Positions 4,213 to 56,459 of a stretch of DNA of 64,000 nucleotides are shown one piece after another; positions within the stretch are counted from its first letter, which is position 1; the number at the start of each line of letters is the position of its first letter. The translations under genes were made by a program, and so were the position numbers. The notes beneath the pieces were generated by a model, which saw only the letters and a program-made list of their open reading frames with translations, did not search any database and had not been told where the DNA came from. Source of the DNA: Bolinopsis microptera (taxonomy: Eukaryota; Ctenophora; Tentaculata; Lobata; Bolinopsidae); assembly GCF_026151205.1 (NCBI RefSeq), contig NC_087074.1, positions 16,255,962 through 16,319,961 on the forward strand. The letters are read 5' to 3'.

Positions 4213-5640
4213 ATATTATATGGCATGTCTCCTCAAAAATACGTCTCCTCACTGCGTATTTAATGGATGCTAAGATGGCCCACCATGTGGTATAAGTGAT
4301 AAAGTGGGATCCTAACACCAAGGTGGGTAGTTGGTGGCTGTTAAGTGAGGGCGGTGTCAATGTGTGTGGCTGAGCCGGCTTCTCCAGACTTATCTGTGTG
4401 GTTTTTAAAAATCTTGTCCATATTTGTTCTGGAAGTAAAATTTAGTTGCTATAGTCAAGATGATGTCATGGTCTTCTCATGCTGCGTATTGAAAAGTAGT
4501 CCTGACTTTCTGCTGGATAACCCTAGTTTTGATATTATTAATGTCTCCAGGTCTACGTCAGTAATAGTTTTGATTTTAAGTAGTATGTTACGAACCATAA
4601 TTTAGAAAAAGAAGTACATGTGCAGTATGCACTCAAAGAATGTCTAATATGTAATGAGTGGTGATATTTTAAATATTTTAAATCAACGATTTTATCTTGC
4701 AATCGTTAGAGCATTGACGTAGACTACAGTCGTTGTCAGTCTTTTAAAGGTTTGTCAACAGACACTTTTAGAATCGTTTTTATGGCATTTTCTGTAATGA
4801 ATTTGTATATTCTAGATTGTAGGAGCGCAGTCTTGTCTTCACAATGTTTCAGTTTTATTGTTTTGCTATTTTTATATATCAGTATAGTTACCTAGTTACC
4901 TAGTTATTTATACTCGGTTACTAAGTTGATGTATTTTTGAAACGCTGAAAATTCCATTCTTTGTAGTTACATTCTATGACAACTGATTATAGAGGACAAA
5001 CTGATAGGCCACTAATGACAACGTTTTACAACTCCAGCAGATCCATATGTTGGCTGAAACACCTGTCATTCAAAGGGCTAATGTTAGGGCTAATACTGAG
5101 GTGACCGGGTCCCAGAACTTGACATGATCTTCAACATAGCAGCTGCATGTCTAAAATTGCTGCACTATTACGTACGATGAAATACACTGTAATATGTGTA
5201 TACTTGTGCTCCTAGTTCCAACTTATATATGTTACAAAATCTTCGCTAATAACGAGAATTCTATGTATATTATAACGTAATTATGATTTATAACTATGTC
5301 TTGGTACTGATGATTTGTTTGCTAAGTCATTTCAGGACGATAGGCTCACAAATAGTTCGTCACAGTAGCTTATCGTTAAGTGCTGTTTTGTGGTCACAGT
5401 TGCGCACCAGGACAACGCAAATTCTTGTCATAGTTTCCATAACTCTGAAGCTTTGTAGCGTACTATCCGTAATACGGTGCGCGCAAAACTTGTGGAATAT
5501 AGCTCCACATTGTACACCCTCAGTAAGACGAATGATTCAGCTTGATGTATTTATATTTCATATTTAAACATATGTATATTTTATAAACTTTCACTCTTTA
5601 TAACTCCTCTCTGCTCCTCTCAAGGTATGTAACAGTGCTA
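4213..5640. other. Intergenic DNA upstream of gene A
   Basis: No exon with a recognisable product. The short frames at 4345-4605 and 5283-5567 have no domain, no flanking splice sites that extend them and no relation to gene A. Confidence 0.45.
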
Positions 5641-5728: not shown

Positions 5729-8700
5729 ATGGCGGAGACCTGTCATGGTATGTTCCCCTTCTTTTTGTTGGTAAAATTCCTTCTTTTTGTTGGTCAGATA
5801 CTGTTGCTTGCTATGTTGGTCTCCGGTATTTACACCAGCAGCTCGCTCAGCTTGTCAACATAGTATTTGGAACTCGGCCGTTTATTTTTAGATTATATAA
5901 TAGCGTACGGTAAGTGTTTTACAATGAGCAGAGGTAAAAACTAAACAGTAAACTCTAGCTAAATCCTGACTAAACACTAAATACCTCGACGTTTCCATTA
6001 TTATTCGTGGCTCTCTGGGAAATTTGATTACAGCACATTTTAAATGTGAGATGTAAGATGTTGTGCCCTGAAGTTAGATTGTGTTTCAGAGTTGTACAAG
6101 TGTGTGGTGGAGTTGGAACAGGCGGAGAAGGAATACGGTACTCAGCTGGGTATTCTGTCAGATTTATTCATTCCACATCTCAAGTAAGTAGTGTTCTAAC
6201 ACGGTTAATTCCTGAGATTAAATAGTCGAAATCTTTCCTTATATTGTATTGACATTCTGGAAATGCTAATTAATAATCATTAAAATTAATATATATAATG
6301 GGATCTTGGAAGTATGCAAGATTTGACGTACGTAACCCTTGCTGTATGTGGATTGTAGCTGGTCTAGTATAACCATGAGAATTTTGCAAAAATCCAAATT
6401 AAATTATTGAAAACCAGTCCAATCCAAGGAAAATTATACTTTTTCTTTTAAATAACAGATGATCACCTCTAGCTACTTAAACAATTCGGCCCCAACATTT
6501 ATCGTCAATTCTGTCTGTTTTCACCTATTCCGTAAACCGTTGACCGTTCTATTTTCTTTGGAAGATTTTTATAAAATCCCCTACCACATTACCAGTTTGA
6601 TAGTCTACCACATTAACAGTTTGATATGACCTTTGGGTCGAAAATGGAAAGTTGCCAAAAAATGTGAAATTAACTTTTTTGACATATTTTGTCCTTATCT
6701 TATAAACTGAACATTGAGATGGAACTATAACGGCTTCATGTATATTATATACAGAGGGTGCAATTATTGGAACATGTCTACATTAATACGGGTCATTTTA
6801 TTCATTATATTCAACTAATGACTTCTCAGGAAACCCCATAAAATAGATGGTGATCCAAACAGGTAAAGCAGCCCTTCCTCCGCCGCAAAGTTATTTTAGT
6901 GCGAAATCCTTCGTTAAGCACCTTGTTTGATTGATTTGTCTTAGCATATTTTAAGCACTCTTATAAATTCACGTTCTAAAAAAGTCTCATTTTCTTTAAG
7001 CTGTTTCTAACTTTTATACAAAGTAAGAAGACAATGTCATACATTTAGTCCGCTCACAATGTCGTAATTTTAGTTCTTATACACTACTTCAGTATTAAGT
7101 TCTGCTAAATATGAATCAGAAGTTAAATTTAGGATGAAATGAATTATAAATTAAAATTAACCGCCGGTCCCTGCTCAGCTCATGCCCCGTTTATTACCTA
7201 ATACTTAAAACACTTCTGACTTCTGGCTTTATTTATTGTGGACTGCACAGCAAACATCCTAACCTGACGTCATTGTTAAAATATATTCATGCTATGAATA
7301 AATTAGCAAATGCTGGCTTTCGTCTAGCCATTCAGTAGTATTTACATATTTACGAAACGACTAAACGTTAAGATTCTGAATATAGAAGCCTAAAATTTGA
7401 TCTATAGCCAGAAAAGAAGCATAGTTTATGCGCTACGTGTAGCAAAGAAGCTACATGTTGTTGGGCGCTAGGTTGGCTGTTCCCAGGGTAGCGATGGACT
7501 ACATGTGCTCTAAATTTATCCTAGGGGACAGATTTTTGCTTTTGTGGAGCAGAGAGGATTCATTTTGCAAGTTTGCAGTGAGAAAAGGGTCGCCAACTAA
7601 CAAACATGTGTAAATTATTGTGCATAATGCTCGCATTTAATGTCACTCGTTTAGTCCTTACGTATATAGATTTTACGAGTATTATTTCTTTTACAATTAA
7701 TAATCCGGACGATGGCTGGCATGTTTGGGCATGTTTACAGATGTAATGATGAAACGTAGATTTAAACAACGTTTGTTCCCCGTACCTTTAGGATTAATGA
7801 ATCGTGAAGAGGCAGTAGAAGGGAAACGTGCGTTACCAAGTACCAGAGTTTTTGTGATTAATTTATCCGTCTTCCTGGCTGTCTTTGTAGTCTGGGCCGT
7901 TAATGTCTACATGTTCTCTACACACCATATACGCCTGTAATCTCCGCGGGAACAATCTGTAGGTGGGTCCCTTGTTTTAAAAGTATGGAGTAAATAAAGA
8001 TGAAGTTTTATGATTTATGGTTTTAAAATAGGTCTCATCCCAGACGAAAGTACTAGAATCCCTGTCCATCATTTACCTGTCTCCTTCAGGTAACAGTGAA
8101 TCTAGGAAGAGTGTGTTTAAAAGTCAAACTGTCCACATCAAAATATTCCTATTGAGTATTGACATGTCAGATGTCAAACACATAATACACGGTATGGCAG
8201 ATGTTGGTACACTGTCATCAAGTAATAGTAATACCCGGATGTCACTTTTCTGAGTTATGAGACGGCTCTGAAGTCATGCCTTGAATATTTTTAGTTTCAT
8301 CGCTATCTTGGTTCATCTCCGTGCCAGTCAATTGTGAAGGATGGGAGGTTGCTAACGAGAAATTTATGATCACTAAAAGTTACCTTTTTGATTACCCTTC
8401 TCACCAGGCCATGTTTGCTAAAAGTTAGTAGTATCATTCAGGAGAGAGTAGCACTAGATGAATTATGTATAACTTCATCTACCCCATTAAACAACAAGAA
8501 ATGTGGATTTGGGGATGGGGAAAATGGGATGGAACCCCCCACGGATTGTGGTGTGGTTAGAAGTTATTTTGATATACTCCGAACCACAACTCTGAGTCAG
8601 GTTTTAACATGGTGGTTAAACAATTAATGAGGTTCTCATCACATCTTCTGCTAAGCGGTTTTGTTCTCGAGTCAAGGGACGGACAGAAAGTTCTTGGTCA

Positions 8701-11700
8701 GGACCGACTACCGAGGTATCACTATAAGGGCGCAAAATCAGTGCCACTTAAAAAGCCTGCGAACTGTGACCTGCAAATGCGCGGGAACACCGAGTGTAAT
8801 CTTCATCGGTGATCGGCTAATTTCTCGGAGATAACTCAAGTACGATATTACATGATTAACTTGAGTCCTAACAGCTATCACTAATTTAAAACTGTGTGGC
8901 GGTTCTGCCTCAGTGAATTTTAGACACCATACAAAATCTGATCACCTCAATCAGACGTAGACAATTACGACACTTAACAGGAGGGCGCTTTAACTAATTA
9001 TCGATAAAATTAGCACATCGTACCTGCACTAGCTAGCTTTGAGTGCGCGCGCGCCGCGCAATTCGATGCACTCAGTTATTTAATTATGACATTGAGTTTG
9101 CAGAATTTTTCTGATGAACCAGCCAGACCAAGAAAAAGTTGTGTAGGCAATGCAGCATAGCTTGTTAGCTTTTCCTATAGCATTATCGTTTCTGGCAGTT
9201 GGATATCAACTGTTCTCACGTTTGTACTTATGTATTCTCGCTATCCTGAGAGTGAGGTGGTTCCATCGAGTAAGAAATGAAGATGTTTTAAGAAGGGCTT
9301 CAATAACTGCTCTTACTGACATAATAGCAACAAAACGGCTACGTTGGTTTATACATGTCAGTAGAATGCATGAAGATCGGTTACCTAACTATCTACTTGA
9401 ATGGAAACCCAAGCATGGGAAACGATCAAGAGGCAGGCCTAGGAAGAGCTTAAATGATGTATTTATTGAAGATGCTGAGCAGAGATTGGATCGTAATGGA
9501 CTCACGATTGATTGTATGAGAAGATTGGCTGCAGATCGAAAAGGATGGAGAAATATTACCCGCCGAAGTTGTATAATACAAAGTAATGACGCAGATGACG
9601 CAGACTAATCCTTTTGGATGGAGATCTCGCCATGTAACATGTAATATGTATTCTCGCTATAACTGCATCAGTGACTGCATAACGCCATAAGGATTATCGT
9701 AATGTAAATTGTACTGTAATGTAAATCGTACTATAAGGATTATCGTAATGTAAATTGTAATGTACATTGTTGTAATGTAAATTGTACTGGATGGAATTTG
9801 AAGCGGAACACGGGAACAGCTCAGTTTTGGGCCCATTTATTTCCGGGGTATAAGTTTCGATTTGTTTGGAATATGAATAGGTCTGAGACCTGAGTTGGCT
9901 GTCGGAACTTTCCCTGTAGAGAATATGATTCTAACGTCCTTTTTTGCCTTTGAAGCATAGATTTAGACCCTTACTTAGCGGTATATCCCATTTAATTAGG
10001 TCTACAGAAGCATCATGATTGGGGATCATCGCCGATTTGAAATTTTTTATTGAATGATTTTACAATTTACATGTTTTGCAGTTTCGCCTTTTTTTCTCTC
10101 AAAAGGAGATGGGGGCACAGCGGTGAAATAGCCAGCAGGCGCTTCAAATTTAGCCCATTTTAATTTATTGCATTATCCGAATTTTCAATGAAACCTTCTT
10201 TCAGAATATGCGTTGTAACGACCGAGGAAATGGAGCAGATGCTGCTTACAAAGATCAAGGATTTATGTGAAGTCAGTAAAGGTCTCTCAAGCAAGGTTTC
10301 GCAGTATGTCTATGTTACTTCATGTTAACCAGTAAATGACCGGGCTGAAATTTGGCAGGAGATGGGACCGGTCGGTGTTTAGAGTGAAATTCATCGAATT
10401 TTTGAATCAATTGATTGACCATAATTTTCGACTGGGATATTTAAAATTAATTAAATTTAGCACATTTTGAAATGATAGTGAATGAATTATTCGGATCATT
10501 TGAACACCATCGTGTGTTCTAATAATTTCAGCCAAATTGGGAAATTTGGTGGCGCCGGGATCAAAAATCCGATCTGGGCTGCGCCGGTCGATTACTGAAT
10601 ATTATATCGATTAACGAATGCAACCGTTTTTATCTCGTAGCTGATTGTTTTATAATGTGTAATGTGGCACATTCTCACGCTCGAGCCATGTTTCCCAGCT
10701 ATTTCACGTTCAAACTGCATGCAGAAACTAAGTCGGTTTCTGAGAAACTCACCTGTATTCTTTATTTCTTATTCTGAAATCTTTTGCAGCTCAAAGAACG
10801 GCTAAAAGCATGGGATGAAGATAGCTCCCTGATAAGTAAGAATATTTGAGAAAAATTGATCTTTTGTATCATATCAAGTGCATTGTTCGATGTCAATAAA
10901 GATCGCTGAAGCTTTGCAGCTTGTGTTCTCAGATTTCTTAATCCTTTGTTTTTTGTGGTACATAATTTGTTCGTAATTTTCTCTTTTCTGGGGAGCATTA
11001 ACCAAACTATGTGCAGGTGATGTGTTCCTTAAATACCCTGATTTTTGGGACCTATACGGTTACTTCTGTCGCAACATTGACTCCGCTATGAGGTAACATT
11101 TACTTTTAAAAGATTCAACTGTTGTTAAAATTTATGATAGCTATAATAATAGTATATAATAAATTTTGTATATATAATGAATAGTGTTTATACATAAGCT
11201 GATTTTTGTTCTCGTCAAAAAAATTGTCTTATGCTAGAGTTCCCAAAATGAATATTATAGTCTTCCGTATCCCAACTAATGCTGAAAGTTTTGGAGCTAG
11301 CTTATTCAAGAATTTCAGGATTCGAATCACATAGCTAATTAAACCAACAACTAATAACAGACAGATGTAGTTGTCAATGGGTCCGGATGATAGCCATATG
11401 GCTAATCGTGTGTAAGATGTACAAATCGTCCTATTCTTCCTTCTGTTGTAATTGATGGGCCATACTCCTAGGCTAATAATTCACGAAAAGCCTTAGAACC
11501 TTGTCAATTAACTTACGGACAGATGGTCAAAGATTCTTGACTTACAAATCTGTGCGATCCCAAACATAGACTGTCTGACTTGATTCTCATTTCTCTATTT
11601 AGTGAGTTAGCAGTGTGAGGCACCAGTGCAGGCTCTTATATATAATCAATAATTTAATATATAATTGGTAATTTAATATTATATAATTAAAGCAAACAAA

Positions 11701-14524
11701 TGCAATGATTTAATTTACTGCAGCTCGTGGGGCGTTGTCCTGCCTCTGATTAATTTTCATTTGATGCAAAACGATAACGTGCCGTCTAGCAATGTCTTTT
11801 ATAAACGAGATATAAAAACAAAGGTTTCTTGATACTTTGTTTTACTTTCACTTTCACTTTCACTTTCACACTATCATCTTATCACACGTGTTAATTGCCG
11901 CTGTTTTTATCTATGCACAGTGCGCGTTTAAAGTGTGAAAGGTTAAGGACCATGTTTTAATCTCCTATTACTCGCTGGAAACAGCAGAACTTAAAGCAAT
12001 CTTAAACACTATTTCCTGCAGGAGATACGATGAGAAGATGATGAGTCATGATTTCGCGGCGTTAGTTTCCCTCAAGCAGGGGTTCACTAACCCTCCTCTT
12101 AAAGATCTCATCATGTTACCGGCGAGTTCTTCATTGTAATTTATACCGTTTATATTTATCCTGGTTACGCAATAGTATTTTGAAATTTTCATGCAAAAAA
12201 CTGAAACGGGGGGAATTTTTTGTCTTACCCCACGATGACACGTATTTTGAACAGGTTCATCGAATGAAGAAATACAAGGAATTTTTTGAGGTTTTTCTCG
12301 AGAAAACCGTTGGAGCAGATTTCATTTTCAGTCATCCTGATTTCTCCAATATAATGGAATGTAAGAAGCAAGTAGAAAACCTCCTTCCTCCTGATATTGA
12401 TGCTATTGTATCCAGAAACCAGCACGAACAATATCAGAAAATCGAAGCTTCGCTGGGGTCTCTAGCTAACGAATTCACATCTTATATGAAACTCCTGCAC
12501 GAGGAACCGGCAGCAGCAATACCATGGAAGAAGCGTGCCTTCAGGAAATCATTTAACCGGAAGGAACCTCTGAAGGATGAGAGATATGATATCGGAGGTA
12601 AGAAGTATGGGACAACAGATCTCACTCCTGACATTCTCAACGCGATGAAGAAACAGGAAGAGAAGGACGCGATGAGTGGGATGCCATCTCCACGAAGGAA
12701 CGCCAAGAAAACAGCACCCCCAAGTGAGAACTTTGTTGGGAGCGTCTCTAAAGTTAAAGTAAGATGGGAAGATGAGGTTCACACATACAACCTCCTCCTC
12801 TTCAAACAGTGTCTCGTTTTCTCCAAAACACGAAATAGGACTATGAAAATATCACGGATTATCAAGTTAAAGCAGCTGTGGTTGTCCGATTACAAAGATT
12901 CGGTGGTAGGATTCGGTCACGTTGAGAAAGAGGAAAATGCTTGTCTCGGGTCATGGCTGGGCTCCGAGCTGGATCCGGAGCTGTTACATAGAGTTATTTT
13001 TAGTTTCTCTAACAAAGATGCGAGAATGCACTGGTATACGACGATACAGCGACACATTCAGGCAGCCAGGGAGAAAGAGGTTCTACGAGCAGGTCTGATC
13101 AAGGTCTACTTCAAGAAGAGTGACAGTCAGCTATCAGTTCCTGGTGACAACCTCTGGCAAGGCATGTCCTGTCAGGAGATCCAAATAGATCCCACACAAA
13201 CAGTGGATAATGTTATTGAAGATGCTGTTAAGAAATGTCAGATGAAGGATAATTCCTACACACTTTCTTTCATTGTTCTTCAAGACACTAAAATAGCCAT
13301 AGAAGAGCAGCTAATCTGGATGGAGATGCCACTCGTGATCAGAGCGGGGTCAAGAGGATGTTACCGGACCCCAAAAACATGAAAACTATTTACGTGCTGC
13401 AAGAGAACGGGTCTAGTATGTGCTCCAGCGGTAGCTCCAGCAGTCCTCTCCCTACCACCAAACTAAACACTGTGGTCACCTTCTTCAGAGGGAGATCTAA
13501 CTCTGTCTGCAACCTGCGACCAACACCTCCTTCCCAGCACCTCACACCAACAGTAAAGCCTGGTAACAAAGTGTTCGGTGTGTCTCTCTCGGAGTTCATG
13601 GGGGAGAACCCTGATAAGATACCACCAACTCTTCTTGATCTATTTGTGTATCTCTTTAACCATTGCTACAACTGCGAGGGGATTTTCAGAATTCCTGGTT
13701 CCCTTGCCGTCCAAAGAGCTTTTGAAAACCGTCTAGAATCAGGAGAACGGATAGATTGGTCGGCTGAAGAAAAGCAGCAAGACAGGTTCTTTCTCCCAAA
13801 TGTGGCTTCTTCGCTCTTCAAATACTACCTGAGGTCACTTCCAGGAGGCCTCGTGCCCAGCAATCTATTCCCTGAGCTAGAATCCTGGCGGAAGAAGTCT
13901 GATGAGGACAAAAACGTCGAGAAAAGCGTAAGTGAGATGAATATAATCCTCTCTGGCATCCCCGATGCTAACCGTACGCTGCTACGATACACTTTGCACA
14001 CTTTGAAACGTATAGCTGCCTTCAGTACTGTTAACCTGATGGGAGACAAGGTTCTCTCAACCTGTATAGGGCCCAGTCTAATAACCTGGCCGGACGATGC
14101 TAACGCTCTAAGTATCTTGGTGGATCAATACCGTCGCGCGACACCGTGCTACGTGACGGAGTTTCTGTTGAAGCACGTGCGGGAACTGTTGGGAAGTGAG
14201 CCGCGCGATCTGGAGAGAAGGAAGGTGATAGATGACGAGGTGAAGAGCAGAGTAAGTGCGAACAGGGTGGACGAGGTTGAGAGCAGTGATGAGGACACCA
14301 GCAGTGTCTGGCTCATGGTCAGGAGCAGTATCAAGGAACATGACCATAAACCTCTACTTCTAGATCTTGCACCGTTAGATTTGAAGGTTAGTGCACGTGC
14401 GCCAGCTGTTGAGCCAGATTCGCCGACCTGCCTGAAATCTCCAGTAATCCTCACATTTGATGACGCATCAGAGACTTCGACTACAGGCTCCGGACCGAGT
14501 GAAAACTTTGGAACTTTGGTTTAA
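5729..14524 (+). CDS. Gene A: DH-PH-RA-RhoGAP protein (ARHGAP20-like GEF-GAP), 7 exons, one apparent frameshift
   Basis: Exons: 5729-5747, 6090-6183, 10205-10295, 10790-10835, 11017-11092, 12022-12121 and 12255-14524. The product is about 898 aa. Residues 7-165 form a RhoGEF DH domain: the CR1 motif has the conserved Glu in AEKEY, and the CR3 region reads LPVHRMKKY. PH is about 308-410, an RA-like fold about 420-500, and RhoGAP about 580-790 with the arginine finger in GIFRIPGS (AGA 13688-13690). The PH and GAP sequences are closest to ARHGAP20 as I know that family. The catalytic Asn of the usual NLA motif is Val here (14051-14053). The C-terminus is GTLV, a class I PDZ ligand. Intron 6 uses a GC-AG donor. 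Exon 7 changes frame in GGGG 13346-13349; one extra G restores alignment with gene B. It lacks three introns that B has. Domain calls are sure, and exact splice sites are inferred from B. Confidence 0.85.
9245..9608 (+). pseudogene. LINE reverse-transcriptase C-terminal fragment in intron 2 of gene A
   Basis: The frame gives WFHRVRNEDVLRRA, then RLRWFIHVSRMHEDRLPNYL, then GKRSRGRPRKS and DRKGW. This order is typical of the tail that follows the reverse-transcriptase domain in many animal LINE polyproteins (rrlrWfGHv.RM...R..GRP...Dr..W). No catalytic RT motif is present, so it is a 5'-truncated remnant. The open frame begins earlier, at 9150, but the residues before about 9245 are not LINE-like. 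It lies in the same orientation as gene A and is unlikely to be used by it. Confidence 0.7.
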
Positions 14525-15442
14525 GTATTAAAGTAGGAGTAGGGAATAGAAAACCAACTAGTTAAAGCTTTAAACACTGAATTATTCTGGAATGGAAATA
14601 TTCTCGCTAAAGTATATTATGTATAAAGAATGTATAATGCTCAGGACGAAATGAAATCTATATATATTCCGATAATTCTAATATCATAACTAGTTTTAAA
14701 ATTAAAATGCTACCGTATGTATCATGTTTATTGAAAGATTTTTACCCATTCATTGTTTGTTAACATTTTATAAGATTATGCATTACATGCATTTTTAAGG
14801 GATTTGTTATCCAAAGTGTATAATTGAGTTATGAAGGATAAGTCTTTCGGGATTTGCTTTAAATTTTTATGGGTTTCGTTATGTTTTTACACAATCTTTT
14901 AACCTGGATAATCAAAGATTCGTATTCGCAAATGAAAATGATTAGTTTTGAATTGCATGGTGTTTTTCACAACATTTATAAAGCCACAGACACAGTTTGA
15001 ACGATTTTTTTCTTTGAAATGATATATATAAATCCCCGTAAATAATTCTATTGCGCAAATTTTGCAGATTTTAACTAAAACGATAATATATTTACGTCAT
15101 TGTTGATGATGAAACTCAATGTGAGACAGCCCTTGTTTTTTACAAATGTATGTAATCTTGTAGCTCGATCCTGTCAATAATATATCTATATATATGAGTT
15201 TATGAATGTAAGTCTTTCAGGACACGAGAAATTTTATTTGTTGATGATTATTGTCAATTTGCATCAGTCACACCTGGGTCTCTGGGTGTTGTTATTCAAT
15301 TTATTCCAATTCAGACACTTCTGGAATTGTTATTACTTGTTCATTATTTACCTCGATCTTTAAAATGCTGATTATTTTAAAACAGCTTAATAATAATAAT
15401 ACATTGTTGTTAGGGGCATGGGAAGGTGAAATAGGTGAGGTT
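14525..15442. other. Spacer between tandem paralogues A and B
   Basis: It holds the 3' untranslated region of gene A and the promoter region of gene B in about 0.9 kb. It is AT-rich with no coding exon. I could not identify a strong polyadenylation site or core promoter. The frames at 15251-15511 and 15301-15486 overlap each other on opposite strands and show no domain. Confidence 0.5.
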
Positions 15443-18400
15443 ATGGATGACTTATCTGCTGCGCAAGGTACGGCTATTTTATACACATTTTATTCCACCA
15501 CAAGAATTTGAGATGATATAATTATGATAGTCAACAATATTATTTTTTCTGAAACAGCTTTTTTCTTGAAGTTAACACTCAACTAAACCCCATATTTTGC
15601 CAGGAAATGACCAGAGTTTGTACCAATGTGTGTCGGAACTAAAAGCCACAGAAAGGAAGTACCACGAGCAGTTACGCTACTTATCGGACCTCTACATCCT
15701 TCATCTAAAGTAGGTCCCATAGTTTTGGAGTTATGATTATCATCGCCTTGCATCAAATACAGCGTGCTTACATCTTCCGACAGATCTTGCTTTCGTATTT
15801 TTCAGAAAGACCGAACTCATTGAACAACATAGTTTATTTTGTCTTTTTTATATCAGGAGGGGTGTGATATTATTGCATAGGATGCTTGAGGGTCAGTGGT
15901 AGACATTTAATTTTGTGTAAAATATCAAAATCAGGAACTGTTTATAGCATATGCATAAAATCATGTATGAAATGTCTTGTATTAATGCCTTGTTCCTACT
16001 AAGGGTTCACAATCCCCCTCCTCAACTTCTCTTTTACCCCTCCCCCTCTATTCCCAAACCCAACCCTCACCTAAAACAGCATAACCCTGACTTTTAACCA
16101 ACCCCTAAAACTTTTTCCCGCCGTTAAAAACGAGGTCGGGTTAAAAGACCCGTTCCTCCGCAAGTTGGTAAAAATTGTATGCATTCTTAAAACTCCTATC
16201 ATTTTTCATGCATTATTTGTCTTGAATATTTTTTTGCAATGTAAAGATACTGCTATCGATCCTGTCATTATATTTATGCGATGTTTTGGACTTCTGAAAA
16301 ATGTCATGTTATATCGTAATGTTTAGAAAAATCTTCAAAATGAATGACAAATATATCTTTTAAAATTAACCTCCTTGAAGTTTTAAAAAAGTTTAGCCTG
16401 TTTATGAATTTAAGGCTAAGGCCTAATAATATCAATCTTAAAAGTTCACAAAATAACTCGCATAGTGAACACGGTCAAAGGTATCAACAGGAGACGAGCT
16501 CTAAACATAGGTGTGGTGAAGCATGTTCCGGTGATGACGTCACCATTTTCTAGTGATGACGTCACCATTTTCTAGTGATGACGTCACCATTTTCTAGTGA
16601 TGGCCTCTTTTAAAGCTGCCTTGCAATTTATTCTACAGATCCATAATAACTACTAGTACTAGACTGTAGTCACTACTAGTTGTAGTGAACTGTTTTACAC
16701 CGCAGCATTGTCTTGCTGTTGCTCATATTAACACTCTCTAACATTCTTTCGTTTTGGATGGATTATAACTTGCGATTTTGTTGTTGATCATAATAAGCAC
16801 ACTACCAGAAATTGTTATTATGTTTGTGTATTACAGTTTATACTTTTATCTAGTTAAGTTTAGATGTTTTAACTGTATATCGAATCTAATGGGGCTTATT
16901 GCATGGATTTTAGCAGCATAATCGTGTAGTAGTGTATAGTATGCATGTTGTGTTTCCAGTTACTGTATGTTATGATTGTTATCTCTAATTATAAATTGTG
17001 CGGTCTTTATTATGGCTACTAAGGTATCAATTTGTTGCGATACATTGTACAGCGATATACTGAGTACCGCTACATCAGACCTTTAGAACGTGCAGACTGC
17101 AGACTGCAGAATGTACAGAATGTGCAGAACGTGCAAAATGTACAGAAAAAGCTCTAAATGCTTTTACTAGAATATCTAGCTGGTAACGCAATATTTAATC
17201 GCCAGTTATTAATTTAGAAACAGTTTCGTATGATATATAATTACGTTTCCTCAGGACATGTGTCATATCGGTGGAAGAAGTCGAGAAAATGCTCCTCACC
17301 AAAATAAAAGATATGATGGAAATTAGCGTGGTTCTTTACACTGAGGTATAGTATAGTTTTTTTCGTATTCTTTTTTTCTGACATCTTTAATTTGTTGTAA
17401 TGGTAGCAGCATCTTCTTGGATCGTTCTTTAGTTGTACTCAAGTTTTACTTTTCCATTAGTTAGCTGAGCGATTAACAGATTGGGATGAGGAATCTTCTC
17501 AAATAGGTGAGTTAATTAATTATAATGAGATGTTAATGAGTTAATGAGATACTCAAAACAAATTTCTGTTCGCAAATTGCACGATGGTTTTATTTTTATT
17601 TAAGATAACAAATATTATGTGCTTTGTTTAAAAAGAAGTCTAGCTAACTAAGAACAAGGTAATGCATTACAGGGGACCTCTTTCTTGGCAAACCGGACTT
17701 GTGGGATCTGTACGATTACTTCTCCAAAAACTTGGAGTCCGCACTAGGGTTTATACCACTTTTAAACTTTTAAACTTTTAATATGGCATGATAAAGTTGA
17801 TTCATAATAATACGGCATTTTGGGTCATGTATTGAAATCAATTCCATATAATTTACAAGAAGGTTGATTTAATTTAGCTGACGTGAAGGTATGATGTATC
17901 AGAGAATGAAGAACAAGTACAATTTACCTGCACGTACTTCTACAATTTCTTCAAACATTTCTGTTCAGAACCCAAACATTGAGCCTTATTTCAACTCTCT
18001 CAGAACGTACGACGAGAAGATGATGAGTTCTGATTTTGCTGCCCTCGTCTCTTTAAAGCAGGGAATGGATAATATCTCTCTCAAAGATCTTATCTTGCTT
18101 CCTGTAAGTAGTTAATTGAGCTAATTATTTAAAAAGCTAATGCAATATCATGTGGAAGAATTTCGGTTTTCATATTGCGAAATAATAAATAGAATACAAG
18201 CCCTCCCCTTGGACTTAGAAATGATTCAAAAATAAGGGAAACAAACGGATATTTGTTTTACAGTATATATAATCAATGATTCACCTTAATGATAACCGCA
18301 GATCGAACGTCTAAAGTGCTACAAGGAATTCTTCGACACATACCTTGAACGAACGGTGAATTCTGCACATAGTTTCGGTCACCCTGACTTTTCCGACTTT

Positions 18401-21400
18401 ATGCAGTGTAAGAAAAAAGTGGAAAATATGATTCCAACGAACTACGACGAGATCGTGAACAAGAAAAAAGTTGACGACTACAAGAAAATAGAGTCCCTAC
18501 TAGGGGACCAGATGGCTCCAGAGTTCACTGCCTTCATCAAGCACATCCACGAGGAACCTGCTTCGTCGAAGAGTTGGAAGAAAAGATCGTACAAGAAAAC
18601 TCCCAGCAAGTTGATGAAGTCGGAGTCGTCGGACAAGAACTCAAATTATGATCAGGTTGAGATTGGTGGGAGGAAGTTTAAGGAAGAGTCCATTGCGCCT
18701 GATATTTTGAACGCCTTGAGAAAGGATGAGGAAACTCAGGTACTGTAGACTTTTTTGGGCTCTGGAATTATTTAATAACAATAATAAGTATATTATATGT
18801 ATTATATACTGCAGTTATGTACAGTGACCTGGAATTTTTGAAAGGGTGAAACAAGGAGATAAAACGAATTGAAAATCTTTTGAAAATGTTTTTTTCTTTT
18901 TTATGACTATCGTCGTCTATTTTTGAGCTTTTGACCACCTGATTTTACAATTCCAGGTGATGGTGGGGATGGTTTCTCCAAGTCGTCCCACTTCTGAGAG
19001 CAACTCTGCGTGTGACAACTATGTTACTATGGAAGATAAGGTATGTGCTCCCTGTCACTTTTTACTCTATTCAATTACCCAAATCATCGAGTTGCTGATA
19101 TTTAATTTCGGCGATCCTGACTTCTGGGTACAAATACCTAAAAACATAATTTTTCACTTGTAAAACAAACAAACTAACTGATCCCCTGCAGGTGAAAGTA
19201 AGAGGAGATAACGAAGTGCAGTTTCACACCTACACCCTCCTCCTCTTCAATCAGTGCCTCATCTTCTCCAAAGTCCGACCCCGCTCCATGAAGATATCTC
19301 GAATCATAAAACTCCGCAACATGTGGGTATCAGAATACAAGGAAGAGATAGGATTCGGTCAGGTGGAGAAGCAAGAGAACACCTGTATCGGAGGCTGGCT
19401 CGGTACTGAGGGTTGGGAAGACGATGAGTTACTCCAGTTTCACAGGGTTATCTTCCAATTTCCTAACAGCCACGTTAGACGCCACTGGTTTACCTTGATT
19501 CAGAGGTATATTAAACATTCTCGAGATAAGATCCCCGTTACCTCGGGGACTATCAAGGTGTATTTTAAGGGCAGTGACAGCAGGTTGTCCTTGCCAATTG
19601 ACAGTATTTGGATGGGGATGTCTTGTCAGGACCTGCAGATTAATATAACTCAAACTGTCGAGGAGGTCATCAAGAACGCAGTGTCAACTTGTCAAATGAT
19701 AGACAACGTCTCAGCGTACACTCTTACATTTATCATTCTTCAAGACACTAAAATCATGTTTGAGGAACAGTTGTTCCTGATGGAGATGCCACTGATTATT
19801 CAAAACGACACTAAGACTATGTTTTCTGATCAGACTATGGAGCCTATATTCATATTGCGTCACAACATCATCTCCAATGTTTCGGTACCCCCGTCTCGAC
19901 AGCGGGCCAGTACTCTGACTCAGTTTTTTCGGCGCGGTGGGCGCGGCGCTGCCCCAACCCCGTATTCTAGGCTGTCTACGATGTCAGACATGCAAGTAGC
20001 CACAGAGGCTTCCTCCAACAAGATGTTTGGACTAACAATTAGCAAATTTTTTAGTATCAACACCGGATCACAGGAAATACCCACTCCTCTTCTCGATGTC
20101 CTAATTTATATTTATACTGACTGTTTTGTTAGTGAAGGAATATTCAGAAAGCCGGGGTCCAGGGCCGTCCAGAGGCAAATAGAAGCAAAGTTAGACAATG
20201 GCGAAACGATAGACTGGGTCGCTGAACAGATGCAAGCTAAATGCTATCTTCCTAATGTAGCTTCCTCTCTCCTCAAGAACTACTTCAGGTCCATTCCTGA
20301 TGGCCTGTTCCCAAAAGTACTGTTCCCTGAATTTGAGAAATGGAGAACTGATGGAAGTGACGCCGGTGGCATAATGTCCATTCTGGCAAAAATTCCTGAC
20401 CAGAACATGACCGTGATACGGTACACCTTCCACGTTCTGAAGCGTATTGTAGATAACAATGCAGTTAACCTGATGACTGCTGACAATCTGTCCACATGTA
20501 TCGGACCAAGTTTGGTCACGTGGCCGGAGGATGCCAACGCTCTGAGTATTCACGCAGATCAGAACAGAACGCAAACACCTAGTGTGGTGGTAGCTTTCCT
20601 TTTGGAGAGAGTGTTCGAACTGTTCGGACCTATACCTACGGTCCTCTCTAAGAGTGCTGTCAAGGACGAAGAGGTTAGTTTTTAAAGACATTATATTCTT
20701 TAACATTCTTAATAATCATGATCATGCAACATCTTTTTTTTAAATACTGAACCTTAAGAATTTTTCCATTAATTTTTCTGACGACAATTTTGTGTACAGG
20801 TTTCATCAAGAAGAAGCAGGTTGAGTAACGAAGCGAACCAAGATGCGGACAGTAGTGAAGATGAAGGAGAAAAGAGCAACTTGTGGCTTAGAACCCTCCT
20901 TCGGAGCAGTATCAACGAGCACAGCACAAGCAGCTCCATGTTCGTGGAGATCGGATCTCCTCCTCTCCTTTCGTTGGGCAAACGGACGCCGAGTCCTGTT
21001 TTGGCTCCGAGTCCTGTTTCGGCTCCGAGTCCTGTTTTGGCTCCTGTTGTGGTGCCTCAAACTGTTCTCATGGAGCAACCACGCATACTTACTATCCACT
21101 CTCAAGCACTTCAGGTACTAAAAGTAAATACAACTATTTAATATTTCGAAATTTGAGAAAGTTCTTACGCTCGTTAAAGTGCATGTATAATGTATAATGT
21201 ATCATAGCTTAGGCTACAGGATAGGTTAGCAATTTTAATTCTAAATATCAAATCATTCATGTAACATTCCCGTTTTCACAGCAAAAACATTTTCTTTCAG
21301 AGTCCGTTGTCAGTGTCTCCAGAACAATGTGATTTACCTGACACAGACCACACTCCCACCGAATCTAAAACTTTCTTCCGGTTCTCTTCCAAGAAAGGAA

Positions 21401-24400
21401 GGAGCAGCAAATCTTCTTCGGACGTGAGTGGCGGAGGAGGCTGTCCGGAGGTGGTAAGAAAGAAAGGAACTGGTTTGAGAAGATCAAGGAAGACGAAGAA
21501 AGAAGATAAGGAACTTAAGTGCTCTTCTGTTTCTGATATCTCGTCTGAAGAAGAGGTACTGTACAAATTATCCAAAATTGAATTGTTTCAAATTTAAAAA
21601 TTACTGAAAATCGTCAGTTTTTTGGGCTACCACTTCCTTTATTAACGAATTTCTACTTAATACTGAATTTAAACAGATTCACCTTAACCTCAGTACAAGA
21701 AAGACAACGTCTTCACTCGGAACACACGAAGCATCAGAGAGAAAAGTGGAGGAGAAAGTTCGAGAAAACAGCGACCAACGAGAAGTGTCGAGGAAGAGCC
21801 GACACCGACAGAAATCAAGAAGACGGGAAGTTTCTCCTCTGGCAGCAGAGTTGAGGGCAGAGTTAAGAGTTTTATTGAACAAGAAAGAAGTGAAGTACTC
21901 CTGGCTAGGGGGAGTCCTGGGGCAGGTTACAGAGAGCACAGGACTCTCAGTGCTGATGATAAGGATGATATTCAGAAGGTACAATTAGTTTAGGTTTTTA
22001 ATTTTTCTCTCATTTCGTTTTTGTCGGGTCACTCTATAATTGGGGTTTAATTTTTAACATCCCTTATGCAATTGTAGAATCATTCAGTTTTTAAGAGGCT
22101 ATTAATGCTTTTAAAACAAAGTTACAACGAATTCTTCATGTAGTGCATCCTGGGTTTGGACAGGATATGCCCGTTTAAAATATTTCCATCACGTTACATT
22201 ACATAATTCCCAATAAATTTAATAGATTTTTTGTAATTAGTATGTTTCTTCAGATAAAAGAGCACCCTGTGGCGAAACGAGTTTTGGTTAAACACAAATC
22301 GACCAAAGCAGCTGTGTGTGTGCAACATTCATACCCTGAACAGGTATTCTTATTTAAGGTTCTTTTGTCCTTTGTGTTCAAATGTGTATCCATTTATGAC
22401 TGTTTCACTCACCTTCAAACATATGTAAAGGTAATTGTTTATACTTTTATATAATTATACTCTAAACCCCTCACCCCTCAGTCCACGTCTTCGTCCCAGT
22501 CCTATAGTTCTCTGCAGCACTGTACCTCTCTGCACGAAACCCCCTCTCCGGGCCCTGCTAAGGAGGGGCACGACCTCGCACATCTTGTAGAGAGTCTAGA
22601 AAAACTGACCAATCCTCGACTTGCACCCTACCGCAAATTTGGAGGTAATTCCGGTCAATGTTTATACGCTACTGCTTTGAATGTACAGGGTGGGCCAAAA
22701 GTCAGTGGGCATACGTTGGCCTTAATAGCTCAGTCACTGATTGCCAAATTGAAATAATTCTTTCTGGTATGACTTACTACCACCACTGGTTCGAGGAATT
22801 TGTCAAATCGAAAAATATTCGAGATAATTTTTTTCAAATGAAGGTTTATTTTTGCATTTATTTGATAGTTTGGATAGTCGGATCGAACTAAATTTTATTG
22901 AATTTTGTTTGGCCATTCGAATTACGTTTGTCGTTAAAAAATTGGAACTTAGGGCCTGTCGTGATATCATGGATCGCTTAGGTTCCACCAGGATCTGGTA
23001 GTCCTCATAATTCTGCGGCCTCTATGTGTCGTCATCTCGCACAACTCCGAAAAACCGTTGTGAGTTTGGCATGTGAAAATTTGCAGCCCTCCAGACATCG
23101 ATTGGGTTAACGAGTTGTCGTACGTCACCTCAAGATCGGGTGACAGGGGGCTGAACAGGCCAGAACCCAATTGATTGGGTCTGAGGTCACGTGATTATGA
23201 GCCTGAGGTCACGTGACTATGACGTCACCTGAGCTCGTTCTCCGTTTCCCGCTCTTTGGAGCAGGTGAGCTTGCATGCTTGTGAAAGTGGGTTAAGTACA
23301 GCTGTACTGTAGTTACATCCAATTACCCCTAATAGAATGAAGATTTATTTTCTGACAGAAAGCTAGAAATTTACCAAAATATCGACTTTGTTCAAAATGT
23401 ATTTTGATGATCACTCTTAACCTAAAATTGCACGAGAAATCGATTAATAAACTTGGTTTCAGAACTCAACAATGCTTCCTTATGCCTTAAGGGGGGGGGG
23501 GATAGCAGTTAACCAACAAACTAGGACCGGTGTCAACCGAACTTTTGAGGGGTCCCGGACCCCAACCGCCAAACGGTGCCCGCGGGGCAGCCACGCCCAT
23601 ATTTCGTCCAAATCAGGCCCAATTTAGCCAAATACCCTGAACATGCCCAAAACCCTTTTTTTGTAGCTAGTGGTCCCCTGAACTCGTATATGAATTTTCA
23701 TCAAGATTGGACAAAAAATGACTGAGTTATGAGCCAAAAACCATATGACCATATTTGGGCATACGCACCAAATTTGATCGATTTTGGCCCATAAATTGGT
23801 CCAATATCAATATTTTTGAATGAAACCAACTTTATATGGAAGGTAAGCTTATACTACACATTCTCTATGATTATCAGCTCAATATCTACCTAACTGTGGA
23901 TTCTGTGTTCAAATAGTTGCAAAAAATGAACAAAATCGCCCATATATCAGTTCGCGATATTTGCAAAACTGATTTCGCTCAAAACAATAGAACTCAATAG
24001 GGTTTCAATATTTTTTCAATTTTCAGAATCGACGTAGAATCGCCTCATGACCTTAAGTTTTGTATTAGAATTTTGAGTTAGGCCTTTAAAAAAATTTGGC
24101 GGCCAAATTCTGAAAAATGCCCGATATTCTTCAACGGTTGAAAAATTCCGAATCTTATGGTTAAGTAAGAATTTTCATTGTGTCTTATCGAAAGTGAATG
24201 AGAGAAACACTTGTGACAATTTTATTTACTGGTCCTCTTATTTGTAAAGCTATCCTGAAGCTCTGCGCTCTTTTCCTTCTCTCATCCTGCCAGCTCTTCT
24301 ACACAGCAGTTATTGGGAGAATTACGACGTGGCTGCGTTTGTTGTCCAGCAAGTAAGTTTAAAGTTATGGTTGTTAAATTTCCTTGAACTTCTATGTCCT

Positions 24401-27042
24401 ATGATCTTGCCAAAGGCGTAGATATAGCGCGCATATGCCTACCGTATGATCAGCTGTTTGTCGAGACCTCAAAAAGAAATAACAGTCAACCAAATCTGAC
24501 TGAGAAAAACTCGACTACATAGAGCAACTGCAAGGGTGGTGTCTAATTGGTGCGCGTTGGTAGTAATGAAGTTTTGACACATGTCCCTAAAGCGATTTCA
24601 TTTAATGAAGTTTTGATCGAAAGCAAGTCGACCACAAAGAATTACTTAACTCAGGCATGAAGCAATTCGTAACTCAAACTGAGAAATATGCCCGCACGTG
24701 CCACGTTTGTATACTGACCAGTCCACCACAAATGAACACATAAAAGGTGATCTGAAATTGAAACTAGTTTGATTTGCAATCTCTCGGTTCAACAGAAATG
24801 GCGGTCTCGTGATATAAGTTGTTCCGTGCAAAGCACAATTGAACTGCTTCCCGAATCCAACTATAATGAAGTATTTAAACTTGGTCCGTAGTCTTCGTGG
24901 AATTTAGATAGATCTTTATAATTCAATTCGTGGTGGTCCCGTGACCTGTCAAAATGGGTTAGACGGGTTCCTGCTAGTAGACTTGAACCTGTCGACAATA
25001 TTTCAGGAATTATTCCCGCAAGAAATTATATTCCTTATATTCCTTACATTTTATAAAATTCCGATATTCTTCAAAGGTTGAAAAATTCCGAATCTTATGG
25101 TTAAGTAAGAATTTTCATTGTGTCTTATCGAAAGTGAATGAGAGAAACATTTGTGACAATTCTATTTACTGGTCCTCTTATTTGTAAAGCTATCCTCAAT
25201 ACATTCAATGACAAAGTGTGATAACCGTTAAAACAGGGGTCGAATTCACAAAAATAACGTAAACCGTTGATTTAAAGCAATCGCCGCTCCTGTCTCTTGA
25301 TTGCTGATGATGATCAGGAACGCATGACGTATAAATATCATCACGACGATTATTGGTCACTCGAAATCGACCCGTTAAGAATGCAATGTAAGTGCGATGG
25401 TTTTTTTTGTGCATTTGTTACCTGTTACTAATTAATCCACAGGATCAAAATGTTTATTGTATCGATAAAAATGGATTTTAAGGCATAAGGGAGCATTGTT
25501 GAGTTCTGAAACCAAGTTTAATCGATTTCTCGTGCAATTTTAGGTCAGGAGTGGTCATCAAAATAAATTTTGAACTAAGTCGATATTTTGGTAAATTTCT
25601 ATATAGCTTTCTGTCAGAAAATAAATCTTCATTCTATTAGGGGTAATTGGATGTAACTACAGTACAGCTGTACTTACACCCACTTTCACAAGCATGCAAG
25701 CTCACCTGGTCCAAAGAGCGGGAAACGGAGAACGAGCTCTGGTGACGTCATAGTCACGTGACCTCAGGCTCATAATCACGTGACCTCAGACCCAATCAAT
25801 TGGGTTCTGGCCTGTTCAGCCCCCTGTCACCCGATCTTGAGGTGACGTACGACAACTCGTTAACCCAATCGATGTCTGGAGGGCTGCAAATTTTCACATG
25901 CCAAACTCACAACGGTTTTTCGGAGTTGTGCAAGATGACGACACATAGAGGCCGCAGAATTATGAGGACTACCAGATCCTGGTGGAACCTAAGCGATCCA
26001 TGATATCACGACAGGCCCTAATTAGAACTGTAGCTTCTCAGATGACCGAGATATGAAGCATAACGAGTTTATTCATTACGTGTGATCAGGTGATTGGTTT
26101 ACCTAATCACGTGATTAGGTGAACCCGTTAACCACCCCGTTAAACATTATGGGAATTGTTAAGGGTGCCCAATTAAGGTGTCGTGTCACGGTGTCACATA
26201 ATCACCCAATCAATTTTGTTAACGAGATACAGAAAATGCTTGATAACTTCGTCATTTCTAATCTGTTTTGCCTCATCTTTTCAGATCATATGCAACATTA
26301 AATACTCTACCGTCTCTGAAAAAAATTAGGCGTTCAGCATGTTCAGAGAAAACAGTATCATATAGGTGTTTTAATATTGAATGGGCGTGGTCTAAAATAT
26401 TCGAATTTTCAAATTTTGACGACGGAATCCTCGAACCAGTAAGTACAGTATGCCATCTGCAAAGCAACAGCTCTCAAATATAAAACATGGTGGAGCTATT
26501 AATAATGCCAACGTATGCCCACTGACTTTTGGCCCACCCTGTATATTATTGCTTAGGTGCCTTTTTTGATAGAAGCACCTGATGAAATTTTTTCAATTTC
26601 TTTTCCAGTGTTCACTACTTCGGTCACTTGGTATGTCGTCAAGATGTATAGTTCACATTAATTTCCTACAATTCTCTTTTATTAAACATACACAATTAAC
26701 TCATGGGGTATCCAGATCCCAATATCAAGTGATGATGATATGTTATTAATTTTTAAGAATCTGAAAATTTTCATTGTGTTTGTTTTTGTGTTTGTATCGT
26801 TTGATTGTGTGACTTATATCTGTATGTATATATATAATGAAATTAAAATTTTTGTATTTTATTTTTTCTTATCTCAACTTGATGTTAAATGGCAAGTGGC
26901 CTCACTTCTTCGTATTTTGCCATGAGAATATTTTTACCTAAATTATAAACCCCAATTATAAACCCCAGGGTCAATCGGTACGGAGTCAGGGACGAGCTCA
27001 AACGATGATGAGAGTGTCGTGGAACAAGAATCCTACGTTTGA
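15443..27042 (+). CDS. Gene B: DH-PH-RA-RhoGAP protein (ARHGAP20-like GEF-GAP), 15 exons
   Basis: Exons: 15443-15467, 15604-15709, 17255-17345, 17461-17506, 17673-17748, 18004-18103, 18302-18739, 18957-19040, 19192-20673, 20800-21114, 21301-21555, 21694-21978, 22254-22343, 22482-22644 and 26969-27042. All phases agree, giving 1209 aa. The DH domain (residues 9-170) has canonical TERKY and LPIERLKCY motifs. PH is about 323-430, RA-like about 440-525 and RhoGAP about 600-805. Arginine finger GIFRKPGS (AGA 20146-20148), Lys/Arg of LLKNYFRS and catalytic Asn of NLMTADNLS (AAT 20485-20487) are all present, so GAP activity is plausible. Residues 810-1209 are a Ser/Lys/Arg/Pro-rich, probably disordered tail with repeated PSPV motifs, ending ESYV, a class I PDZ ligand. 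Exons 3-6 match gene A in length to the base (91, 46, 76, 100). The last intron contains a 3.86-kb transposon. Exon 12 was placed by frame and splice signals and is the least certain. Confidence 0.88.
16531..16596. repeat. Three 22-bp repeats, each with a perfect CRE palindrome
   Basis: Unit GTGATGACGTCACCATTTTC plus TA, three consecutive identical copies in intron 2 of gene B. Each contains TGACGTCA, the CREB/ATF consensus, so the sites are 22 bp apart, about two helical turns. It could act as an intronic enhancer; that is inference. Confidence 0.85.
22951..23490 (+). repeat. Left 540-bp inverted arm
   Basis: It begins AGGGCCTGTCGTGATATCAT and ends TATGCCTTAA. It is the near-perfect reverse complement of 25478-26019. 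A 67-codon frame (MGSGLFSPL...) is open in both arms only because the arms are copies of each other, so I do not call it a gene. Confidence 0.92.
24121..24256 (+). repeat. 136-bp direct repeat, copy 1
   Basis: Almost identical to 25061-25196. It runs from CCGATATTCTTCAACGG to GTAAAGCTATCCT. Copy 1 leads directly into the exon-like segment at 24250-24352, and contains what looks like the polypyrimidine tract and AG acceptor before it. Confidence 0.93.
24250..24352 (+). pseudogene. Captured exon resembling a PITPNM/RdgB-type (DDHD-region) protein
   Basis: After an AG acceptor (24248-24249), the frame reads YPEALRSFPSLILPALLHSS and then YWENYDVAAFVVQQ, ending at a perfect donor GTAAGT (24353). 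The YPEAL...SYWE..DV.AF...Q pattern resembles, from memory of the family, the DDHD region of membrane-associated phosphatidylinositol transfer proteins (PITPNM/RdgB). No neighbouring exon of such a gene is visible in the window. The segment sits between the transposon arms, so it is best read as a gene fragment picked up by the element. Homology is judged by eye. Confidence 0.5.
25061..25196 (+). repeat. 136-bp direct repeat, copy 2
   Basis: Second copy of the 24121-24256 sequence in the same orientation. It ends after the same TATCCT but then continues into unrelated sequence, so it stops 7 bases into the exon-like segment. The pair encloses about 0.8 kb. Confidence 0.93.
25478..26019 (-). 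repeat. Right 542-bp inverted arm
   Basis: Reverse complement of 22951-23490, with only scattered substitutions and small indels. The near identity means that the insertion, or arm-to-arm gene conversion, is recent. Confidence 0.92.
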
Positions 27043-28532: not shown

Positions 28533-31500
28533 TTACTTTGGGCGATCCTCAATCGAAATCCCATTCACTGTCTGCCTCCACACGTCTCGATCGCACATAA
28601 CAGTTCGAAGGTCGTCTAACTGGAGCCCAGTGTCACGAGCTACTACGTCCAGGAAGGTGAGTGGTCTCCTTCCACGGCCGGATTGGGCAAGTCGCCAGGG
28701 GAGGATAGTGGAGATAACTTGGTCAGAAGCTCTCATGCAATGCCCAGCAAATCTGGAACGCCTCGACGCAACCACTGAGGCAATAGATGGAAGGTTGCCA
28801 TAGATCTGATTGAGGGTTGGATGTTTCTTCCACGAGATGTTCTTGGCCTTCATTAAAAGACGGGTGTAGCATCCGTTGAGGCGCTTCTCAAGCTGCTTGT
28901 TTATGGTCCATGTCTCTGATCCATAGAGCAATACTGGTTCTACACAGGCTCTAAAGAACTTGACTTTCAGTTGTTCGGAAATGCCAGAGGACCAGACTTT
29001 TTGCAGTTTAATACAGGCTGACCAGGCCATTCCTTTCCTTGTGTTGAAATCCTTTCTACTGTCCGCAATGAAAGAGCCGAGGTATTTAAAGTCATCAACC
29101 TGTTTAATCTGGCGGCCTGAGATGGAATGTAAGTCGACAGTGTCAGGGATGTTGATGGTCATGAACTCGGTCTTAGAAGCATTCATAGCAAGACCAACTT
29201 GTGCGGCTGCATTTTCAAGGTCTGTCAGCAGAAGTTGGACTTGCTCTATGGTGTCTGACATTAAGGCCAAATCATCAGCAAAGTCAAGGTCTGTGATTTT
29301 GATCGCAGGCACTCTTCGACTTTTCCTAGGCACGATGGTAAGACCGAATTCTTCACCCATGCAGCTTCTGAGGACATAGTCAAGGACGATGATGAAGAGA
29401 AAGGGTGCTAGAGTGTCCCCTTGGAGAACTCCAATAAGTGTCCTAAAAAAGTCAGTAAGGCCGTCGATGGTCTGGACACGAGAGAACGATGAGTCATATA
29501 GAAGCCTGATAGCATCTACAAGTGGAGCAGGAATACCGTAGAGGGAGAGGATGTGGAAAAGGGCATCCCGGTTAATGCTGTCGAACGCTTTCGAAAAATC
29601 GACAAACACAATTGCGGCTGAGCGATTTCCGATCTTGCATTCCTCGAGTATACGACGTAGGGCAAGGACCTGTGGGAGTGTGGATCTTCCTCTACGGAAA
29701 CCATTTTGGTTTGGACGCAAGAGGGGATCAATGAATGGGTAGATCCGGTTGAGGATGAGCTTGTTAAAAACTTTCGCTGCAACCGGTGCCAGTGAAATGC
29801 CACGGTAGTTTCCTGGATTAGTAAGATCACCTTTTTTGGGGATAGGAATGATAGAGGCCGTTTTCCAGGCTTGAGGGATCACACCATCCATGAGTGCTTT
29901 GTTACAGAATCCGAGGAGGTTTTCACGTAGCTGGGGAAGCTTCCAGACTGAGGGAGGGATGCTATCTAGACCGGGTGACTTGGAGGACTTGGCGGACTTC
30001 AGAACCGTGTCGAGTTCTGACATGCTGAAGGATGAACAGCTGATGGGCAGGGTGTCAGAGACTCGCTGGTTGAAGAAGGGGAGGGTGAGGTCCGGCGGAG
30101 GCTGTTCTGTGCCTAGAAGGGACTTGAAGTGCTCGAACCAGATGTTGAGCCGTTCTTCGGTAGTGCCTCCTGGCACTTTGCAGTATGGCACAGTGTCGGA
30201 AGATGTTAGTTGCCTGATGATGTGCCAGGAACTGCGATGCCTGTGCTCAGGGTTAGTTTTCTCCAGCCGGTCAGTCTGTTGTCGAATGTGCTGTGAAGTA
30301 GCAGCATTATAGGCTTCGTCCAGTTGCTTCTTTGCGTCTTCAAGCTTTTCCTTGGACGAAAAAGAGGGGGAAATCCTGTGACTCAGGGACGCATCCTTTA
30401 GGATATTGCGATGGTGTGCAATATTAGGATCGTTGTAAGGATTTTCCCGTTTCCTCTTCCTCTTTTTTGGCAGCACCTTAAGTGCTGTGCTTGTAACGCT
30501 TTTAACGAGCAGGTCGTAGTCGGACTCGAGCTCTGCTTCCTCTAGGAGTGCACTGTATCTGTTTTTCACTTCCACTGCATACTGGTGTTTCATGATGGAA
30601 TCGTGGATCAGTGGAGTCCAGTCAATGCTCCTAAGAGGGTCCCGTGCTGGAGTTTTGTTGACTCTGTAGCTGGCTTGAACAAAACATGTTACAATCCGGT
30701 GATCTGAACCGACAGTTTGCATGATGTTGTACGCTTGACAGTTCTTCACACTGTTTGCCCACTTCTTACGCCAGAGTACAAAGTCAATTTGATGCTTTGC
30801 TCTTTTGGGGTCTTCATAGGTCCAAATTTTATTAGCCGGTTTCTGGAAACAGCGGTTAGCAACTATCAGCTGGTGTTGGTCTACCAGATCCAGTAGTCGT
30901 TCACCGTTGTCGTTGGTTGACTGATGGTATGTGAAACCGTAGCTATTACTGAGCTTCGCGTTGAAATCACCGCACACTGCTAGCATGTTGTGAGGAGGCA
31001 CCTTAGAGATGATCCTGGTTAGAGCGTTGTAGAATGCAGTTTTATCTTCAATATCACTGCAGTTAGTAGGAGCATAACATGAGAGGACTGTGAGGCGAGG
31101 ATTCCCGTTTACATGGAGCAAGATGATTCTGCTATTAACTTTCTCTACAGATAGGAGAGATTTCTGAATTCTAGGAGATAAAAGAAACCCAACACCACCA
31201 ACTGAAGCATTAACTGAATTCTTCGTAGCAGAAGCAGTGATAAGCTGATATGATAAGATGTTTTCAATTCTTAGGGATTCTTTGTGGTGTTGGCGATGCT
31301 CTTGCAAGGAGATAACATCATTATGATGCAGGAAGGCTGAGTGAGCTAACTCCTGTTTACGTGATACAGGGTTGAGAGTCCTACAGTTGAAGGTGCTAAC
31401 CTGAAAAGGGGTTTTCCTACGAACTAAAAGGGTAGTAACAGGGTTGCTGCAACTATCAGGACCCACCCCTCCCGGGGGTTTTAGGGAGGGCCCGTCATAC

Positions 31501-56234: not shown

Positions 56235-56459
56235 ATTATTCTTTGACCTGTTCTACAGTTACCTCTTCAAAACAGAAAGTTTGCACTCTGTTGGAGGTGG
56301 CATATAATTTAGGAAGTTGTTTGAATGATCTTTCGATAAGTGAGTTCACTGTGGATGATACAAGACACGATCTAGAGGTACTGGAAATTAAACTAGATTG
56401 CTGAAAAAAACTTAAGTAAACCGACAACCATCAGAATAGAATAATAGAACCAAAGTTTA

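Follow-up and report, generated by a model that had tools for sequence, protein, structure and literature searches.

Two neighbouring genes in a 64,000-nucleotide stretch of Bolinopsis microptera DNA, hereafter called the window, are probably tandem duplicates of a single-chain Rho GEF-GAP gene, as judged by domain architecture and kinship. Each copy would encode a DH domain, a linker, a PH domain of the ARHGAP20 type, an RA-like region, a RhoGAP domain and a tail ending in S/T-x-V. Genes A (5729-14524) and B (15443-27042) lie head to tail, both on the + strand. The gene models were put together from the open frames, their splice signals and exon phases, and the comparison of A with B; in these models, position 5729 is the first base of the start codon of A, and 27042 the last base of the stop codon of B (Table 1). 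Gene B, as spliced in the model, consists of 15 exons that encode 1209 residues with no internal stop, and gene A has 7 exons and a frame that is broken, as assembled, between RA and RhoGAP.

Table 1. Exons of the rebuilt gene models, with positions numbered within the window.
Exon	Content	Position	Strand	Remark
Gene A exon 1	19 nt including the start codon	5729..5747	+	ATG, donor and phase only; weakest exon of A
Gene A exon 2	DH start	6090..6183	+	
Gene A exon 3	DH; 91 nt	10205..10295	+	
Gene A exon 4	DH; 46 nt	10790..10835	+	
Gene A exon 5	DH; 76 nt	11017..11092	+	
Gene A exon 6	DH; 100 nt; GC splice donor	12022..12121	+	
Gene A exon 7	DH end, linker, PH and RA up to 13349; frame broken near 13346-13349; RhoGAP and tail (GTLV) follow in a second frame	12255..14524	+	
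Gene B exon 1	25 nt including the start codon	15443..15467	+	Weak: ATG, donor and phase only
Gene B exon 2	DH start	15604..15709	+	
Gene B exon 3	DH; 91 nt	17255..17345	+	
Gene B exon 4	DH; 46 nt	17461..17506	+	
Gene B exon 5	DH; 76 nt	17673..17748	+	
Gene B exon 6	DH; 100 nt	18004..18103	+	
Gene B exon 7	DH end and linker	18302..18739	+	
Gene B exon 8	Linker leading to PH	18957..19040	+	
Gene B exon 9	PH of the ARHGAP20 type together with the RA-like region and RhoGAP	19192..20673	+	
Gene B exon 10	Tail, similar at its start to the tail of A	20800..21114	+	
Gene B exon 11	Tail	21301..21555	+	Predicted: frame, splice sites and phase only
Gene B exon 12	Tail	21694..21978	+	Predicted only
Gene B exon 13	Tail	22254..22343	+	Predicted only
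Gene B exon 14	Tail	22482..22644	+	Predicted only
Gene B exon 15	Tail end, ESYV and stop	26969..27042	+	Predicted only; agrees in phase (1) with exon 14, the intron between them being 4.3 kb long

A local head-to-tail duplication had been proposed in an earlier note made from the sequence alone, and it was borne out by the tandem arrangement on the + strand and by the similarity of the two copies: the first part of A is 54% identical to B over 521 positions, and its GAP frame, after the break, is 42% identical over 390 positions. The equal lengths of exons 3 to 6 (91, 46, 76, and 100 nt), also pointed out in that note, were found in both genes together with equal phases. No third copy was detected in the window by tblastn with B and A as queries, the lone stray match lying at 24559-24690 with an E-value of 3.9. 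A search for relatives with exon 9 of B confirmed none of 2 pattern stretches in a collection of viral contigs and none of 27 in one of genome contigs; both collections are intended for DNA other than that of animals, and the result therefore does not bear on how the genes are distributed among animals. Two tandem arrays were observed upstream of A, one made of 15 copies of a 56-nt unit (759-1599) and the other of 36 copies of a 12-nt unit (3780-4214).

The rebuilt proteins were searched with hmmscan against Pfam, with cut-offs of 27.6 bits for RhoGEF/DH (PF00621), 27.7 for RHG20_PH (PF22286), 21 for RA (PF00788), and 24.5 for RhoGAP (PF00620). In the spliced proteins, DH scored 65.7 bits in B (8e-18, residues 17-191) and 72.4 bits in A (6.8e-20, residues 12-185). 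RhoGAP scored 93.5 bits in spliced B (1.5e-26) and 95.2 bits in another scan of B, and 92.3 bits in the GAP frame of A (3.6e-26). RHG20_PH was the best-scoring PH model in both genes, just over the cut-off in B (28.0 and 29.7 bits) and under it in every scan of A (23.3 to 25.1 bits). The RA model reached 20.5 and 20.1 bits in the longer scans of A, under the cut-off, but 21.1 bits for the PH-RA piece and 23.9 bits when the region was cut out. In B, it scored 13.7 bits, and 15.5 and 17.8 bits for pieces, under the cut-off in every scan, and it was not listed among the Pfam matches of the full-length protein up to E = 1. The RA regions of A and B are 64% identical. An RA domain thus appears to be supported in A, and it is homology with A that points, weakly, to such a domain in B. 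The order DH-PH-RA-RhoGAP was therefore recovered in both rebuilt proteins, with RA weak in B, and of the likeness to ARHGAP20 claimed beforehand for the PH, RA and GAP parts, the PH part (over the cut-off in B, under it in A) and the GAP part stood, whereas the RA part fell short of the cut-off in B.

The linker between DH and PH is about 130 residues long, and the usual DH-PH tandems have a shorter one, a point against the proposed reading. AlphaFold2 models computed on contiguous window exons with three-row alignments had mean pLDDT values of 33.9 and 44.6, too poor for use. The predicted C-termini of both copies have the form S/T-x-V, with GTLV in the GAP frame of A (14510-14524) and ESYV in B (27028-27042), an ending of the class I PDZ-ligand type. 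The tail of ARHGAP20 carries annexin-like repeats; self-blastp of the tail of B found no internal repeat up to E = 1. In the last intron of B, two 344-nt inverted repeats that are 99% complementary and 2385 nt apart (22949-26021) look like a transposable element.

The exon structure argues that all these domains belong to one protein. In A, a single open stretch (12255-13349) runs from within DH through the linker and PH to RA, and in B, PH, RA, and RhoGAP are all contained in a single exon (19192-20673); taken together, these two exons tie DH to GAP in one chain. The earlier note had placed all the domains in one chain in both genes. This is read directly in B, and in A we infer it across the broken frame. 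A model artefact, in which two genes, one for a DH protein and one akin to ARHGAP20, were joined by hand, draws on the fact that the chain was built from exon models and that the first and tail exons are predictions, but it has to contend with the open stretch of A, with the common exon of B, and with the presence of the same chain, with conserved phases, in the two paralogues, and we give it very little credence. The exons thus provide good genomic evidence that DH, PH, RA, and RhoGAP are probably carried by one chain.

The frame of gene A is broken at a run of G near 13346-13349, between RA and RhoGAP, so that the gene, as assembled, falls into two frames: one of 517 residues with DH, PH and RA, and another of 410 residues, counted from stop to stop, with GAP. 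Moreover, exon 6 of A has a GC donor where B has GT at the equivalent place. Neither the break nor the GC donor had been noticed in the earlier note. GC-AG introns exist naturally, and runs of G are usual sites of read errors. The differences between A and B at codon positions 1, 2 and 3 were 0.357, 0.222, and 0.635 before the break (504 codons), and 0.406, 0.313, and 0.673 after it (278 codons), and 390 codons downstream of the break are free of stops. On this sequence evidence, there is coding constraint on both sides of the break, and the third-position-biased divergence on both sides, together with the stop-free codons, suggests that the break either arose recently or is an error of the assembly.

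A bypass of the break by an intron was also considered. When GT donors were taken between 13255 and 13351, and AG acceptors as far as about 13480, nine candidate introns, 68 to 131 nt long, kept the frame open, and each of them removes sequence in or just after RA that can be aligned with B. A frame break in the coding sequence is therefore likelier than a bypass intron such as 13349-13416. It is possible, though less likely than not, that gene A is a young pseudogene and not a working paralogue: a single gene that carries both a GC donor and the break separating GAP from RA would fit this idea, but the 390 stop-free codons past the break, the third-position bias on both sides, the natural occurrence of GC-AG introns, the proneness of G runs to read errors and the chance of a bypassing intron all speak against it. 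We consider B likely to be the working copy, and A either to work as well, its break being an assembly error, or to have been damaged recently.

Outside the two genes, a LINE-like ORF with endonuclease and reverse transcriptase domains was found at 28533-31586 on the - strand. An Rfam match to SECIS_1 (31446-31507, - strand; 42.7 bits for a cut-off of 35) lies near its 5′ end and is either due to chance or a captured element. A fragment of reverse transcriptase (RVT_1) was detected at 56448-57491 on the + strand, with an E-value of 6e-05 and a score of 23.3 bits, under the cut-off of 29.6. Of ten ORFs of the window scanned with Pfam, nine of them outside both genes and one in the second intron of A, one had a match up to E = 0.01.

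In alignments with structure chains, the catalytic arginine and lysine of RhoGAP are retained in A and B, in columns assigned by the RhoGAP motifs, and the Asn of the GPN motif of p50 is replaced by Ser in both copies, as in ARHGAP20. The catalytic arginine and lysine of RhoGAP domains are named in PMC8305018. Where their DH domains can be aligned, A and B are 56% identical, and both copies keep the Glu found in the first conserved DH stretch. A motif near PIERLKCYKEFF / PVHRMKKYKEFF, which we take to be the third conserved stretch, deviates from the usual pattern in both copies. GEF activity may thus have been lost. In that case, only the RhoGAP half would be enzymatic, and DH would serve as a binding or autoinhibitory module. 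The deviating third stretch in both copies and the retention of the GAP Arg and Lys are consistent with a dead or scaffold DH, but both DH domains score far over the Pfam cut-off, and the identity between them includes the Glu of the first stretch. We consider a GAP with a dead DH unlikely, and retain a dual GEF-GAP protein as our preferred reading.

For such a dual protein, a mechanism can be proposed by analogy. An active GTPase of the Ras/Rap family would bind the RA region, and PH would help membrane targeting. The binding of Ras/Rap would release RhoGAP activity on a Rho-type GTPase, and DH would meanwhile load the same or another Rho-family GTPase, resulting in a reciprocal switch that could be placed at PDZ-scaffolded sites via the S/T-x-V tail. 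The role of the RA-like region as a putative Ras/Rap sensor is drawn from RA-RhoGAP (ARHGAP20): it is named a Rap-activated RhoGAP in the title of Yamada et al. 2005, as cited in PMC6212855 and PMC7281527, and a table row of the latter gives RHOA, RAC1, and CDC42 as its substrates. The gating mechanism taken alone is tentative, and we rate its chances as somewhat below even.

Few animal proteins are known to unite a Rho GEF and a GAP in a single chain. Given a second GEF-GAP architecture, this time with an RA-like region, one could test how a single input controls opposing activities, and also whether ARHGAP20 descends from a dual enzyme. According to a 2020 review, a comprehensive comparison of RhoGAPs with those of basal metazoans had never been made (PMC7600811).

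BCR/ABR resemble A and B in having DH and RhoGAP in one chain, which is seen directly in B and across two frames in A. BCR/ABR also carry a C2 domain. The proteins of the window differ from them by the RA-like region and the ARHGAP20-type PH: as anticipated in the earlier note, no C2 model was found among Pfam matches up to E = 1 in spliced B, in the first part of A or in the GAP frame of A, and A and B thus do not fit BCR/ABR. When solved DH structures were ranked, without a tree, with a profile of the A and B DH domains, two BCR chains came last of 28 (E about 0.006), and the BCR DH was absent among the 19 chains found with the DH of B alone up to E = 1. BCR's own GAP is absent from the listed RhoGAP chains, and the GAP comparison therefore excludes it. 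A GEF-GAP of the BCR/ABR type with a lost or hidden C2 would share the order of DH, PH, and RhoGAP, but with no C2 among the matches up to E = 1, BCR DH chains in last place or absent, and a PH of the ARHGAP20 type, we find this scarcely credible. BCR is described as unique in holding both GEF and GAP in a review (PMC6505627).

The likeness of both DH domains to the Dbl family is clear from scores well above the Pfam cut-off. The nearest solved DH domains were those of P-Rex1, FGD6, P-Rex2, and Vav for the profile of A and B (28 chains), and FGD6 and P-Rex1 led with B alone (19 chains, E up to 1). We know of no RhoGAP domain in P-Rex1, FGD6, P-Rex2 or Vav proteins, and A and B differ from them by the addition of one.

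With regard to the GAP domain, kinship was assessed by ranking against solved structures only, without a tree. ARHGAP20 (3msx) came first with the profile of A and B, at 82.0 bits, followed by p50RhoGAP at 72.6 bits (25 chains, E up to 1e-6), and also with B alone (75.0 versus 61.6 bits for p50RhoGAP; 24 chains). With A alone, p50RhoGAP and ARHGAP20 were nearly tied (60.7 versus 58.6 bits; 30 chains). A and B resemble ARHGAP20 in the order of an RHG20-type PH (over the cut-off in B), a region that is RA-like, weakly so in B, and a RhoGAP domain, with 3msx as the nearest GAP for B and for the joint profile, and differ from it by the DH domain in front (PF00621; 8e-18 and 6.8e-20). Vertebrate ARHGAP20 is, as far as we know, a PH-RA-GAP protein devoid of DH. 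Among the literature matches listed, in their titles and the beginnings of their abstracts, none described a DH domain on ARHGAP20, a weak indication that the architecture may be undescribed so far. A worm protein is written RGA-2/Arhgap20 in PMC13072950. It is conceivable, but in our opinion doubtful, that ARHGAP20 had the order DH-PH-RA-RhoGAP in ancestral animals, as a protein that was gated by Ras/Rap and both loaded and unloaded Rho GTPases, and that its GAP half alone survives in the vertebrate gene. Such an ancestral order with later loss of DH had been suggested in the earlier note, and the literature consulted speaks neither for nor against it. The pair is best filed as a fresh combination of known kinds, a RhoGAP resembling ARHGAP20 and preceded by a GEF domain of the Dbl type.
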